Shown in pieces: positions 5,301 through 60,565 of a stretch of 64,000 bases of DNA. The DNA is from Arctopsyche grandis. Lineage: Eukaryota > Arthropoda > Insecta > Trichoptera > Hydropsychidae. How positions within the stretch are numbered: position 1 is the first letter of the stretch; every line of letters begins with the position of its first letter. The notes below the pieces were generated by a model. It saw only the letters and a list, made by a program, of their open reading frames with translations, was not told where the DNA came from and ran no database searches. The translations under genes were made by a program, and so were the position numbers. The DNA is taken from the NCBI RefSeq assembly GCF_051622035.1, contig NC_135367.1:7910501-7974500 (forward strand), read 5' to 3'.

Positions 5301-5879
5301 AATTTTTACCGTACAATTTGAAAACTGAATATGGCGAAAGAGTTATTAGTTTGACTATATGTAGTTATAATATTTATTTCTCGATCTTCTCGAAGTATTG
5401 TATCGTTACTACAACTACGATCTATAAAAAAAAATCCAAAAAAAATTATTGTTAAATACGTTCCTAGAGATGTACCCGACGACAGAATTATGAAAATTTT
5501 GATAGAAGACTTCGGAACTGACGTCTCTAATAACATTAAATTCAGTCACCTAGCGGGTTCTCGGGAAGGGCCCACCTGCCACAGAGTGTATTCCACTTCG
5601 CCAGCACTCCGAAAAAAACTTGTAAACCAAGGAAGATGCTTCATAGACTGGAATTCGTGCAGGATCGATGACTACATTAGCGTGCTTAAATGCCCACGCT
5701 GCTGCAACTTCGGGCACTCTATAAAACTAGTGTTGGACCCGTTGATTTCAACGGGTGGTTTCGAAAAGGAATTGAAACTCGAATAAAAATAAAGTTAAAG
5801 ATATTAAATCGACTGGTTTCGGAAAGAAATTGATGCACGAATTACGAAGTGATTACGAATTACGAACTACGTTTTGTGC

Positions 5880-6265
5880 ATCGCCGACCTCCTGACGCCT
5901 TTGCCCCCGATGCCTCCGTCGCTCCGGGGCCTTCGGCCCCAGCGCCGCCGACGCCTCCGGCGCCCCCGACGCCTTCGGCACCCCGGGGGCTTCGCCCCCA
6001 GCGCCGCCGACGCCTCCGGCGCCCCCAGCACCCCCGATGCCTTCGGCACCCCGGGGGCTTCGCCCCCAGCGCCGCCGACGCCTCCGGCGCCCCCAGCCCC
6101 CCCGATGCCTTCGGCACCCCGGGGGCTTCGCCCCCAGCGTCCCCGATGCCTTCGGCATCCCGTGGGCTTCGCCCCCAGCGCCGCCGACGCCTCCGGCGCC
6201 CCCAGCGCCCCGATGCCTTTGGCACCCCGGGGGCTTCGCCCCCAGCGCCGCCAGCGCCCCCGGCA
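5880..6265. repeat. GC-rich hairpin-dense repeat block (locus 1)
   Basis: About 385 bp of repeated units with TTC/TTCG-capped palindromes such as GGGGCCTTCGGCCCC and GGGGGCTTCGCCCCC, interleaved with GCGCCGCCGACGCCTCCGGC. The major unit is about 57-60 bp. The absence of stops in several frames on both strands reflects base composition and repeat length, not coding. Compare the blocks at 16290-16375 and 48820-51240. Confidence 0.8.
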
Positions 6266-6665
6266 ATGAAAAAACTGAAAAAATGAAAAAAATGAAAAAC
6301 TGAAAAAATGAAAAAAATGAAAAAACTGAAAAAATGAAAAAAATGAAAAAAATGAAAAAACTGAAAAAATGAAAAAAATGAAAAAACTGAAAAAATGAAA
6401 AAAATGAAAAAACTGAAAAAATGAAAAAAATGAAAAAAATGAAAAAACTGAAAAAATGAAAAAAATGAAAAAACTGAAAAAATGAAAAAAATGAAAAAAA
6501 TGAAAAAACTGAAAAAATGAAAAAAATGAAAAAACTGAAAAAATGAAAAAAATGAAAAAAATGAAAAAACTGAAAAAATGAAAAAAATGAAAAAACTGAA
6601 AAAATGAAAAAAATGAAAAAACTGAAAAAATGAAAAAAATTAAAAAACTGAAAAATATGAAAAAA
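6265..6665. repeat. A-rich minisatellite (TGAAAAAACTGAAAAAA)n
   Basis: Tandem units of CTGAAAAAATGAAAAAAATGAAAAAA with variants of about 18 and 26 bp, about 400 bp in all. On the other strand this gives a Phe/Ile/Ser-rich pseudo-frame that should not be called a gene. It adjoins the GC-rich block and belongs to the same insert. Confidence 0.85.
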
Positions 6666-6957
6666 AAAAAAAATTTGTTCCCCATACTGGTTGATGGTTG
6701 ATCGTCCGTCACATACAAATATACAAATATATTTAGCGACAGTCCGTTTTTATATATAGTATATTGCAAAGAGGAAAAACCAAATTGTTCTCACTGTGCT
6801 TCTTCTGGTCATCTAGTTTCAAATTGTCCATCTACATCGAACCCGCCCAAATGCTTCAATTGTACTATAACTAACAAACCCAGCAATCATATGACAAGAA
6901 TCAACCAGTGCCCTGAACTTAAAAACCAGCTCACCATTATGATCAATAAAACGGATT

Positions 6958-16172: not shown

Positions 16173-16185
16173 ACATACATACATC

Positions 16186-16400
16186 TAATATATAATTTGG
16201 AAAGAGACTTTGTATATATGTATGTATGCATCCGTCGTTCGTAGAAATCCGTGACGTCATCGAACAAATAATTCGCACTTTTCCGATTCAAAGTATTCGA
16301 AGTTCCCGGGGGCGTAGGCGCCGAGGCCGAAGCCCTAGGGCTCCGCCCCTTAGGGGGCGCAGACGCTGGGGGTGTACATATATATTTTTTATAAGAGACT
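16186..16400 (-). mobile_element. short copy of the GC-block element (locus 2)
   Basis: It begins TATAATTTGGAAAGAGACTT and TGTATATATGTATGTATGCA, then GTGACGTCATCGAAC, then a GC block (16303-16375) of palindromic pieces such as CCTAGGGCTCCGCCCCTTAGG. The first two parts are the inverse of the end of the large element at 51270-51397 (GTTCGATGACGTCAC and AAGTCTCTTTCCAAATTATA). It is therefore a short minus-strand member of the same family, with its array reduced to about 75 bp. Confidence 0.7.
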
Positions 16401-34523: not shown

Positions 34524-36614
<2,091 letters not shown>

Positions 36615-36677
36615 TTATACATACATGTATGTGTGCGTTAAATAACTACAATAAAACAAATTAATAAGGTTAAAATT

Positions 36678-37700: not shown

Positions 37701-38148
37701 GACTATCCGCACACAACCCAACCCCGTGACAAGTCACAAGTTGATAAATGTGATTGCATTATAATAAATTATACTCACGGATACATTATAATACATGGGA
37801 TTGTATTATAATCACTTCACGGATATATTAAAAAAATGAATAAACACTATTTTAAAAAAATTGAAGGAAAATAAGTTATTTGGAAATAATCACGCGGGCC
37901 GCATGGAATTGCGTGGCGGGCCGTAGTTTGCCCAGGCCTGGTATATACGTTTTGGCAGTGGTTTACATATGTATGTCGAATCGAAACGACTATTATATTA
38001 CGGCGAGTGTATCTCAAACAGACACATAGAATAGCGAAATTATATATTATACATGATGTTGAATTTTCTTCAAATGTTGGCGGTTTGAAATTAATTAAAG
38101 CATCAAATAAGTGTGTTAGTTTATAAATGTTTATTGATTAAAATTTAT

Positions 38149-38295
38149 CGTATATACTATATCGTATATACTATATCGTATATACTATATCGTATATACT
38201 ATATCGTATATACTATATCGTATATACTATATCGTATATACTATATCGTATATACTATATCGTATATACTATATCGTATATACTATATCGTATCG
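38149..38295. repeat. 14-bp minisatellite downstream of protease gene 3
   Basis: About ten copies of CGTATATACTATAT. The equivalent place in copy B (46250-46270) has no array, so expansion happened after duplication. Confidence 0.9.
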
Positions 38296-48233: not shown

Positions 48234-48590
48234 TTAGTGTTGTGCCCGTTGATTTCAACGGATGGTTTCGAAAAGGAATTAATACACGAAATAAAATAAA
48301 ATTAATTTATAGGTTTGCATGCGCACGTATTAATCGTAAAAAGTTGAGTGCGCGCATTACACGCTCACCGATCCAACCCATTCAGCCGTTCTAAATGATG
48401 AATGGAAGTGTGTGTGTGGCTTCGTGGATGTGTGTATGTGTGTACGCTCCCGTTGTTCGGCCTGACGTCATACATGTCAGATAATCCACACCCCCTCCTT
48501 TCCCCACTACCCCCTTCACAGCGTCTCCTTGACCACTTGACCATGTGGATCACTTGACTATGATTGGCTATGCACCTCTGTGTTTTATAT
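48234..48590 (+). mobile_element. head of the GC-block insert family (copy 2)
   Basis: TAGTGTTGTGCCCGTTGATT, TCAACGGATGGTTTCGAAAA and GGAATTAATACACGAAATAA match the head of the insert at 5729-5800. A GTGTGTGTGG-type run and CCCCCTCCTTTCCCC follow. Whether it forms one element with the GC block downstream or is a neighbour is not decided by the sequence. Confidence 0.5.
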
Positions 48591-48819
48591 ATTACTAGCT
48601 GTATTACCCGGCTTCGCTCAGTGTTTATAATATAAACCGCTTAAACATGACTAAGCTAATTTAATTAAAAAAAAAAAAAATTAAAAAAAAATTTAAAAAT
48701 TAAAAAAAAAAATAAAAAAAAATAAAAAAAAAATCAAAAAAAAAAATAAAAAAAAAATAAAAACAAAAATTTTAAAAAATCAAAAAAAAAATCAACATTT
48801 TTTTTTGCCTTCTAGGGCT

Positions 48820-49497
48820 TCGCCCTCGGCGCCCCCCTGAGCCTTTGCCTTCTAGGGCTTCGCCCCTCCACGCCCCATGAGCAATTGCCGTTTAGGGCTT
48901 CGCCCCCATGATCAGTTGCCTTTTAGGGCTTCGCCCCTCCGCGCCCCCATGATTAAAAGCCGTCTAGGGCTTCGCCCCCCTAAGTTAATGCCTTTTAGGG
49001 CTTCGCCCCCCGCGCCCCAAAGATTAATTGCCGTTTAGGGCTTCGCCCCCCTTAGTTAATGCCTTTTAGGGCTTCGCCCCTCCGCACCCCCATGATTAAA
49101 TGCCGTCTAGGGCTTCGCCCCCCTTAGTTAATGCCTTTTAGGGCTTCGCCCCCCGCGCCCCCAAGATTAATTGCCGTTTAGGGCTTCGCCCCCCTTAGTT
49201 AATGCCTTTTAGGGCTTCGCCCCTCCGCGCCCCCATGATTAAATGCCGTCTAAGGCTTCGCCCCCATGATCAGTTGCCTTTTAGGGCTTCGCCCCCCGCG
49301 CCCCCAAGATTAATTGCCGTTTAGGGCTTCGCCCCCCTTAGTTAATGCCTTTTAGGGCTTCGCCCCTCCGCGCCCCCATGATTAAATGCCGTCTAAGGCT
49401 TCGCCCCCATGATCAGTTGCCTTTTAGGGCTTCGCCCCTCCGCGCCCCCATGATTAATTGCCGTCTAGGGCTTCGCCCCCTTTAGTTAATGCCTATT
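48820..49497. repeat. GGGCTTCGCCCC short-unit array, block 1
   Basis: About 20 units of TTAGGGCTTCGCCCCCC alternating with CGCGCCCCCATGATTAAATG or TTAGTTAATGCC spacers, unit about 30-45 bp. Each GGGC-TTC-GCCC can fold into a tight hairpin. Confidence 0.9.
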
Positions 49498-50112
49498 AGG
49501 GCTTGCGCCCCATGAGGCTGGGCCCCCCGGGCCCCCTTCGGGGCCCCACGGGGCTGCGCCCCTTGTGGCGCCCCCTTTTGAGCCCCATGGGGCTGCGCCC
49601 CATTAGGCTGGGCCCCCCGGGCCCCCTTCGGGGCCCCATGGGGCTGCGCCCCTTGTGGCGCCCCCTTTTGAGCCCCATGGGGCTGCGCCCCATGAGGCTG
49701 GGCCCCCCGCGCCCCCTTCGGGGCTTCACGGGGCTGCGCCCCTTGTGGCACCCCCTTTTGAGCCCCATGGGGCTGCGCCCCATGAGGCTGGGCCCCCCGC
49801 GCCCCCTTCGGGGCTTCACGGGGCTGCGCCCCTTGTGGCACCCCCTTTTGAGCCCCATGGGGCTGCGCCCCATGAGGCTAGGCCCCCCGGGCCCCCACGG
49901 GGCTGCGCCCCTTGTGGCGCCCCCTTTTGAGCCCCATGGGGCTGCGCCCCATGAGGCTGGGCCCCCCGGGCCCCATGGGGCTCAAAAAAATGGGGCTCAT
50001 GAGGCTGCGCCCCTTGTGGCGCCCCCTTTTGATCCCCATGGGGCTGCGCCCCATGAGGCTGGGGCCCCACGGGGCTGCGCCCCTTGTGGCGCCCCTGGCG
50101 GGGCCCCATTAA
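49498..50112. repeat. 90-bp unit GC-rich tandem array, block 1
   Basis: Roughly seven units of 90 bp containing GGGGCTGCGCCCCATGAGGC, GGGCCCCCTTCGGGGCCCC and TTGTGGCGCCCCCTTTTGAG. Two unit variants alternate (CTTCGGGGCCCCACGG and CTTCGGGGCTTCACGG). The last two units are shortened. Because 90 is divisible by three, stop-free frames run through on both strands; they are not genes. Confidence 0.9.
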
Positions 50113-50165
50113 ACTACTCGCCTTGCGCCCCCGCGGGGGTGAATCCATTGAATCGAAAAAAACAA

Positions 50166-50560
50166 ATAGGGCTTCGCCCCCCTTAGTTAATGCCTTTTAG
50201 GGCTTCGCCCCCCGCGCCCCCAAGATTAATTGCCGTTTCGGGCTTCGCCCCCCTTAGTTAATGCCTTTTAGGGCTTCGCCCCTCCGCACCCCCATGATTA
50301 AATGCCGTCTAGGGCTTCGCCCCCCCTAGTTAATGCCTTTTAGGGCTTCGCCCCCCGCGCCCCCAAGATTAATTGCCGTTTAGGGCTTCGCCCCCCTTAG
50401 TTAATGCCTTTTAGGGCTTCGCCCCTCCGCGCCCCCATGATTAAATGCCGTCTAAGGCTTCGCCCCCATGATCAGTTGCCTTTTAGGGCTTCGCCCCTCC
50501 GCGCCCTCATGATTAATTGCCGTCTAGGGCTTCGCCCCCCTTAGTTAATGCCTATTAGGG
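50166..50560. repeat. GGGCTTCGCCCC short-unit array, block 2
   Basis: Repeats the order of spacers of block 1 (TTAGTTAATGCC, AAGATTAATTGCCGTT, ATGATTAAATGCCGTC), so the whole block was duplicated rather than grown independently. Confidence 0.9.
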
Positions 50561-51175
50561 CTTGCGCCCCATGAGGCTGGGCCCCCCGGGCCCCCTTCGG
50601 GGCCCCACGGGGCTGCGCCCCTTGTGGCGCCCCCTTTTGAGCCCCATGGGGCTGCGCCCCATGAGGCTGGGCCCCCCGCGCCCCCTTCGGGGCTTCACGG
50701 GGCTGCGCCCCTTGTGGCACCCCCTTTTGAGCCCCATGGGGCTGCGCCCCATGAGGCTGGGCCCCCCGGGCCCCCTTCGGGGCCCCACGGGGCTGCGCCC
50801 CTTGTGGCGCCCCCTTTTGAGCCCCATGGGGCTGCGCCCCATGAGGCTGGGCCCCCCGGGCCCCCTTCGGGGCCCCACGGGGCTGCGCCCCTTGTGGCGC
50901 CCCCTTTTGAGCCTCATGGGGCTGCGCCCCATGAGGCTGGGCCCCCCGGGCCCCCTTCGGGGCCCCACGGGGCTGCGCCCCTTGTGGCGCCCCCTTTTGA
51001 GCCCCATGGGGCTGCGCCCCATGAGGCTGGGCCCCCCGCGCCCCCTTCGGGGCTTCACGGGGCTGCGCCCCTTGTGGCACCCCCTTTTGAGCCCCATGGG
51101 GCTGCGCCCCATGAGGCTGGGCCCCCCGGGCCCCCTTCGGGGCCCCACGGGGCTGCGCCCCTTGTGGCGCCCCTG
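50561..51175. repeat. 90-bp unit GC-rich tandem array, block 2
   Basis: About seven 90-bp units in near-perfect register. The terminator segment GGCGGGGCCCCAT(G/T)AAACTACTCGC plus GCGCCCCCGCGGGGGTGAAT and CCATTGAATCGAAAAAAACA closes both block 1 (50096-50167) and block 2 (51173-51246), marking a tandem duplication of about 1.1 kb. Confidence 0.9.
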
Positions 51176-51399
51176 GCGGGGCCCCATGAAACTACTCGCT
51201 TTGCGCCCCCGCGGGGGTGAATCCATTGAATCGAAAAAAACAAATCGGCGCCCATGGATCGAAAAAAAAAAAAATCGAATCACGTGTTCGATGACGTCAC
51301 CGATCTACGGACGACGACGAAGACGACGAAGACGACGACGACGACGACCAAGGATATTTACATACATACAAAGTCTCTTTCCAAATTATAGATTAGATT

Positions 51400-52065
51400 A
51401 TTCTACATATGTGGACCTAATGTTCAATAACTACATGCCTGATAGCATCACAATATATGATAAAATAGTAGATGTAGTCGATAGTAATTTATATTTAGGA
51501 CAAATAATATATGTACATGTCCGGTAGTAATGAAGAAGAAATAAAGAGAAATTTTAATGGAGTGCATTTGGACGAATGAATGTGGATTTTAAGTCAAAAA
51601 TGCCACTTTGCCTGAAGAAAACGATCTTCGATCAATGTGTTTTGCCAGAGATGTCGTATGGATGTGAAACTTGGACATTGAACGCCAAGTTGCTTCACAG
51701 TCCAATGCACACAAAGAAGTATGGGACGTTGTATGCCTGACATAACTAGGAAATACAGGAAACGGAATACGTGGGTAAGAAGTATGACAAGGCTAGTGGA
51801 TATAGTGGATAGAGTGAAGAGATTAAAATTATTTTATATTGAACAGGTCACATGGCTAGAAGAATGGATGAAATATGGACAAAAGAAGTGCTACCCGAGA
51901 GAATGAAAAAGGGTAAAAGAAAGGCCGCTGGGAAGATGGGTAGACGAAATTAAGAATATATGTGAGATGAGATGAATGAGAGTTGCGCAAAACAGAGATG
52001 AGTGGAAGCGTGTTGGAGAGGCCTTCATCTAGCAGTGGATAGTGAATGGCTGTAAGTGATGATGA
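51400..52065 (+). pseudogene. RTE LINE 3' relic
   Basis: A decayed match to the end of the RTE LINE at 34532-35220: LMFNNYMPDSI, SNLYLGQII, PLCLKK.IFDQCVLPEM, YGCETWTLNAK, ITRKYRKRNTWVRSMTR and VKRLK occur in shifting frames, and the 3' end GATAGTGAATGGCTGTAAGTGATGATGATGAC gives the trinucleotide tail. The GC-block element ends just before it. Confidence 0.8.
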
Positions 52066-52194
52066 TGACAAATGTGGACATATTCATATCTTCCATAATG
52101 TGATGTGTTGTATCCAAAACAGCAGTAACGGAGACGATTTATTCATATTATATTTCCCTTGAGTCACGACGTAGTATACATTTGGGGAAACATA
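52066..52194. other. spacer, nothing recognised
   Basis: Short AT-rich stretch between the RTE relic and repeat Z. Confidence 0.3.
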
Positions 52195-60065: not shown

Positions 60066-60565
60066 CCTAATCAATCGAATCATAATTTTAAATATTTTTA
60101 TAAATCAGCGGCACCGATAGTCATTTATGATTGTGGAGTACAATCATAGTTAATTGTAAGTTTCTTTCAATACAATTTTTGCTCGTTTTGACATTTCAAT
60201 GGATGGCTTCGTAATTGAATTGATGCTTGATTTAAAATTAAACCTAAAAATATAAAGAATGTCTATTGACAAAACAAACATTTTTTGAAATATTACCATT
60301 CGGCTCCATAGAACATAGCATTTTTTATTTAATCAATCATGTACATTCTTCTAACAGATTGCTCCAACACCACAAGTTTTCAATACAGATTAAGAATTGT
60401 TTATTAATTGAATACCGAAAATAAAAAGGATCTACATACATACATATGTGGCATTTTTAATATTTTTAGATACATCGGTTTTTGACCATGCATTGTAAAA
60501 CAATTGAATAAGCAATACAAACTTTTTTGGCACTTTCGGAACAGTGACCTTTTCCGCAGGCCATT
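60066..60565. other. AT-rich spacer with a weak match to the GC-block insert head
   Basis: CATTTCAATGGATGGCTTCGTAATTGAATTGATGC near 60192-60226 resembles the insert head at 5746-5780, without a GC block. Otherwise nothing is recognised. Confidence 0.3.

Follow-up and report, generated by a model that had tools for sequence, protein, structure and literature searches.

A very probable non-autonomous Helitron with a GC-rich hairpin minisatellite core in Arctopsyche grandis

Helitrons, which are rolling-circle transposons, include Helibat, HelibatN, and Helraiser, for which excerpts of the published account give TC...CTAG ends and an A|T target, high-copy non-autonomous families, and insertion beside another Helitron (PMC4778049). 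In HINEs such as DINE-1 and in the oyster Cg_HINE, fixed ends enclose central tandem repeats of variable number, often a microsatellite, and these elements insert at T-rich TT sites and have Helentron partners (PMC7492417, PMC4067079, PMC9957191, all in excerpt). The repeat-rich unit of A. grandis described here (family B) shares the listed features of canonical Helitrons, but B and a second family, C, differ from them in having a GC-rich minisatellite core, which makes up most of the element in B, and also in the weak 3′ hairpin of B and the TA start of C. Fixed ends and variable-number central repeats are likewise common to B and the HINEs, whereas B inserts at A|T, and GC-rich hairpin repeats do not appear in the excerpted descriptions of DINE-1 or Cg_HINE. 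Among the titles and abstract beginnings returned by literature searches, none dealt with a Helitron whose core is an array of GC hairpins, and none of those returned for the word GGGCTTCGCCC was about repeats. GC-rich minisatellites in general change in length by multiples of their unit, and the arrays of B do the same, but here a transposon carries the array about as its own body. Central tandem repeats have precedents among Helitrons; what is new is that two families in a single genome have a core of GC hairpins.

The window, which is the whole stretch of 64,000 nucleotides analyzed (contig NC_135367.1, positions 7,910,501–7,974,500), contains a 2.8-kb unit that is very probably a non-autonomous Helitron with a GC minisatellite riding along, inserted serially at AT. 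The preliminary description had placed this unit at 48590–51397 and knew of no standard class for it; its right border is exact, but the left border lies at 48595, and the class of non-autonomous Helitrons does fit, with A|TC...CTAG|T and no target duplication seen. The features in window coordinates are as follows.

5727–6761, minus strand: family C Helitron within LINE ORF1, with a GC array at about 5900–6264 and an A-rich array at 6265–6674
16185–16372, plus strand: diverged relative of family B, represented by its 5′ part and a short GC block; 5′ end 77% identical over 82 bp
48234–48594, minus strand: second Helitron-like copy, of family A/C type by its 3′ end, without GC array, adjoining B with no spacer
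48595–51397, minus strand: complete non-autonomous Helitron of family B, 2803 bp, with borders common to 31 complete fetched copies and flanks A|T; 5′ TC at 51397 and 3′ CTAG at 48595–48598 in the minus-strand reading
48595–48660, minus strand: 3′ end of B (CTAG; weak hairpin GCGAAGC); mean pairwise identity 0.994 (99.4% over 66 bp, gaps excluded, n = 32 copies)
48661–48806, unstranded: A-rich block, scored in 32/32 elements
48807–49498, unstranded: P1 array of alternating 31- and 40/41-bp units, with GGGCTTCGCCC
49499–50090, unstranded: Q1 array of 90-bp units, with GGGGCTGCGCCCC and GGGCCCCCTTCGGGGCCC
50091–50166, unstranded: T1 segment, 96% identical to T2 over 80 bp
50167–50557, unstranded: P2 array within the duplicated block, from the alignment of P1Q1T1 with P2Q2T2
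50558–51168, unstranded: Q2 array within the duplicated block, from tandem-repeat and block alignment
51169–51246, unstranded: T2 segment, from its match to T1
51247–51397, minus strand: 5′ end of B, TCTAATCTATAATTTGGAAAGAGACTTTGTATG...; mean pairwise identity 0.985 (98.5% over 151 bp, gaps excluded, n = 32)

Read on the minus strand, the element starts at A|TCTAATCTATAATTTGG (51397) and finishes at CAGCTAG|T (48595), and both unique ends and the A-rich block flank the GC block. The initial claim of about 2.4 kb of GC-dense sequence in AT-rich DNA holds, with 67% GC in 48798–51263 against 33.7% in the remainder of the window, and so do the two 90-bp arrays (49499–50073 with 6.4 copies and 50558–51173 with 6.8 copies), the repeated "terminator segment" (T1 and T2), and the duplication of the block as a whole, in which 1006 of 1047 aligned bases of P1Q1T1 and P2Q2T2 are identical and the longer copy has 299 unmatched bases at its start. 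For the two arrays of alternating 31- and 40/41-bp units, TRF also gives periods of 72 and 143 bp. Stems take the forms GGGC-TTC-GCCC and GGGCCCC-CTTC-GGGGCCC, so that the palindromes reported earlier are present but their label "TTCG-capped" is loose. Elsewhere in the window, positions 38146–38293 hold a 14-bp tandem repeat, TATCGTATATACTA, in 10.6 copies at 100%.

A search of the window's own genome (476 Mb) with the 5′ end of B returned 1220 first-look candidates, and the 40 that were scored are 95–100% identical (42 match rows, one of which spans just 50 bp, the others being at 95–100%), in keeping with a numerous and young family. The best of these matches were fetched as twenty 9.9-kb regions, and the sample is thus not random, since its loci were picked for their likeness to the 5′ end of B itself; within it, both B ends enclose a GC array at 20/20 loci, and the two terminal segments of the preliminary description do recur together around other GC blocks. 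Complete elements, defined as a plus-orientation 3′ end followed directly by a nearly complete 5′ end, number at least one per locus and 31 in total (32 with the window copy), cut or diverged copies such as those in L034, L036, L037, L038, L042, L044, and L047 being left out. These 32 are 983–3222 bp long with 50–62% GC and keep one module order throughout (3′ end, A-rich block, P array, 90-bp Q array, T segment, and 5′ end); L044 2400 lacks the P motif, and seven elements lack the T word. The P-Q-T series is doubled in the window copy and in L044 5283, and the A-P-Q part is repeated in six copies (L031 6155, L033, L034 6231, L035, L038, and L039 6197). The array had been presented as cargo of a dispersed family; it is mobile, dispersed, and amplified, but all 32 complete copies examined carry it, which makes it a constant core in these copies and not an occasional cargo. 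Within the 20 loci the GGGCTTCGCCC motif is confined to Helitrons: 645 of its 710 occurrences fall inside complete elements, and the remaining 65 belong to copies that are incomplete, diverged, or of family C, apart from one that lies next to a diverged B-type 3′ end. No exact match was found to end or array words in viral contigs or to the end word in bacterial and archaeal genomes. L049 (8430–8802, oriented) contains a pair of B-family 5′ ends that point toward each other across about 75 bp.

In window orientation, 29 of the 32 elements have CTAG with A as its left neighbor at the 3′ border and three have ATAG (terminal base lost or changed), and the 5′-TC end is present in B in the minus orientation. 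The right flank base is T in 20 elements, C in 10, and A in two, and each of the 10 C bases is the C of an abutting CTAG, which belongs to a further B element in nine cases and to family C in one. Of the 32, 14 have no B or C copy adjoining them; their flanks share no border bases in nine and one to three in five, so that the target-site duplication expected of a SINE or TIR transposon was not seen in these elements. A further search, with the joined flanks of 21 insertion clusters, covered the window and the fetched loci, excluding spanning matches for L034 and L036, whose flanks contain other Helitron copies. Paralogous empty sites were recovered for 3/21 clusters and show no target duplication, namely a clean one for the L050 insertion (window 59293–59128) and AT-rich ones with fuzzier alignments for L043 and L031; no usable empty site was present for the other 18/21 in this search space. 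A LINE with reverse transcriptase has two copies in the window (34532–36645 and 51417–52089; 82% over 693 aligned columns), the second of which begins 20 bp past the 5′ end of the Helitron; it was rejected as an empty site for B because the LINE match lies in the right flank only, from 51417.

Transposition would involve a Helitron-type Rep/helicase encoded elsewhere, which would nick the TC end, copy one strand up to CTAG, and then insert the product at AT sites. Helitron Rep sequence is found in the genome as 16 stretches matching PF14214, several being parts of one copy. The single Rep locus viewed, as two 3-kb pieces (G000:C13:5357200-5366800; L051 and L052), has an 836-aa open frame, a helicase C-terminus, and a sub-threshold Ulp1-like match and is possibly an autonomous Helitron-like element, but no autonomous partner with the ends of B was found there, the best match to the B and C ends being only 16 nt (E 0.013). 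At G000:C3:20710636-20738034, Rep-domain matches recur in four copies at exactly 9032-bp spacing, as a tandem unit with Helitron Rep sequence. Speaking against the Helitron assignment, the hairpin at the 3′ end of B is weak, at −0.5 kcal/mol, and those of two older relatives reach −2.7 and are likewise not beyond their shuffles.

The second family with a GC array, C, was seen in the window (5727–6761), L035, and L047, and its ends differ from those of B. It starts with TA, not TC, its GC array with GGGGGCTTCGCCCCC precedes the A-rich array in an order opposite to that of B, and its window copy has a strong 3′ hairpin (−7.9 kcal/mol, z −3.15). A genome search with its 3′ part brought up 1504 first-look candidates, and the 40 that were scored match at 99–100%. 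When the flanks of the window copy are joined at A|T, the LINE frame is kept and a CX2CX4HX4C motif results; with either junction, Pfam matched the neighboring knuckle alone (E 0.015, below the cut-off) and not the knuckle completed by the joined site. The B and C arrays may be homologous, and the best local score between them was reached by 2/200 shuffles. Matches to family C, including G000:C3:10164527-10166819, form close groups about 0.9–1.2 kb apart on one strand, as if head to tail, and window positions 60193–60242, which resemble the family A/C 3′ region (76% over 50 bp), are perhaps a relic copy.

Near-identical copies differ by gaps, in one pair of whole units, and array length therefore seems to evolve faster than array sequence. 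For example, L033 and L034 6231 are identical at 2004 of 2010 aligned bases, and L033 lacks 270 and 90 bp of the Q array, sizes equal to three Q units and one. Compared with the same L034 copy, L031 is short by 21 and L039 by 12 GC-rich bases, L038 has no gaps of at least 5 bases, and L035, with its extra A-P-Q block, aligns poorly (96.7%). Slippage or unequal exchange, aided by short direct repeats and hairpins, would add or remove entire units and entire P-Q-T blocks of the minisatellite; the unit-multiple differences are compatible with the slippage-type growth suggested at the outset, in comparisons that do not separate slippage from unequal recombination. Diverged, older relatives without an array, recognized by eye, are about 220–240 bp long (L038, L041, and L037; two of the three without clear CTAG), and others have a single GGGCTTCGCCC at one place (L042) or one Q-like array (L037). 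The relative at 16185, in opposite orientation to B, confirms the earlier observation that the right end recurs inverted beside a small GC block; its 3′ end was not found, and a comparison of its GC block with the first P unit of B gives 21 identical bases in 22, above all 200 shuffles. The simplest reading is that a seed expanded inside the element, with array loss by deletion as the alternative. Derivation of the array from the Helitron's own 3′ terminator was rejected, since the shared 8-mer GCGAAGCC is reached by 57% (P1) and 44% (P2) of shuffled arrays; with the query shuffled instead, the figures are 21% (P1), 18% (P2), and 2.7% (family C array).

Head-to-tail B elements with zero spacer occur at 8/20 loci (10 pairs), as could be expected of rolling-circle concatemers produced by read-through of the 3′ end. 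That origin is improbable, because eight neighbor pairs share 0.43 of their 25-mers against 0.47 in 220 matched different-locus pairs, a level that 84.6% of random re-pairings reach or exceed for the neighbors, and because a family C element adjoins B head to tail in like manner (L035). The two remaining neighbor pairs share 0.39 and 0.28 (0.39 in 53 control pairs), and the unmatched comparison (0.41 in neighbors against 0.53 in 483 different-locus pairs) is biased, the search having favored similar elements. Neighbors no more alike than controls favor serial insertion at the 5′ border, and the head-to-tail neighbors look like serial insertions: the clusters would arise because the B 5′ border (...A|T in window orientation) is an AT target, at which later elements may insert successively. 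The copy at 48234–48594, which abuts the window B element, has a 3′ region 87% identical over 71 bp to 5728–5798. Membership among the Helentrons, as a HINE such as DINE-1 or through mobilization by a Helentron-type Rep, is given only a small probability against the canonical Helitron reading. Central tandem repeats and microsatellites are frequent in HINEs (PMC7492417 and PMC4067079, in excerpt), and B has such repeats, which are not exclusive to HINEs; the Rep locus viewed combines a helicase C-terminus with an Ulp1-like match just under the cut-off, and a proto-Helentron with a Helentron-type Rep yet 3′ CTAG and A-T insertion is described in the excerpted part of PMC4067079, so that the ends alone do not fix the Rep type. 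HINEs, however, go into T-rich TT sites, between T and T, whereas B has TC/CTAG ends and lies between A and T.

Under the canonical Helitron reading, the array may be a passenger or a working part that pauses the helicase or shields single-stranded DNA, offsetting the weak 3′ hairpin. The latter is unlikely, even though a GC-hairpin array lies beside an A-rich block in two families with different ends, all 32 complete copies examined have the array, and the 3′ hairpin of B is weaker than in the two older relatives folded. Short relatives without the array occur, a constant array can be inherited without selection, and no selection on the hairpins was seen. Short inverted repeats with arms of 4 number 154, against a dinucleotide-shuffle mean of 67.9 (sd 10.3), a total inflated by tandem repetition, and the first P array alone shows no excess with arms of at least 5 (1 against 3.2 in shuffles). 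A 143-nt P stretch folds as DNA no more stably than its shuffles (z +1.0), and one 90-nt Q unit is moderately more stable (z −2.8 and −1.6 on the two strands). Compensatory stem evolution in B was rejected, with no case among 732 P-type and 172 Q-type hairpin occurrences, so that function of the array is possible and not supported; in family C, three position changes come from 19 occurrences of possibly different hairpins. It is similarly doubtful that two Helitron families acquired or exchanged the GC-hairpin and A-rich module because it aids rolling-circle transposition, with many weak internal hairpins pausing or terminating in place of one strong terminal hairpin, which would make the elements GC-minisatellite factories in an AT-rich genome. 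GC-rich repeats are hard to assemble, which could suggest an assembly or contamination artefact, but 32 elements spread over 10 contigs have one layout while differing in unit number and by scattered substitutions, and an artefact, as already named in the preliminary description, is exceedingly improbable.

In one genome, copies with long arrays and near-identical ends coexist with diverged relatives that are array-free, single-unit, or short-array, and this natural series lends itself to studying how minisatellites are seeded and expanded by Helitrons. Many cases of Helitrons located at one another's 5′ borders are likewise available for study.
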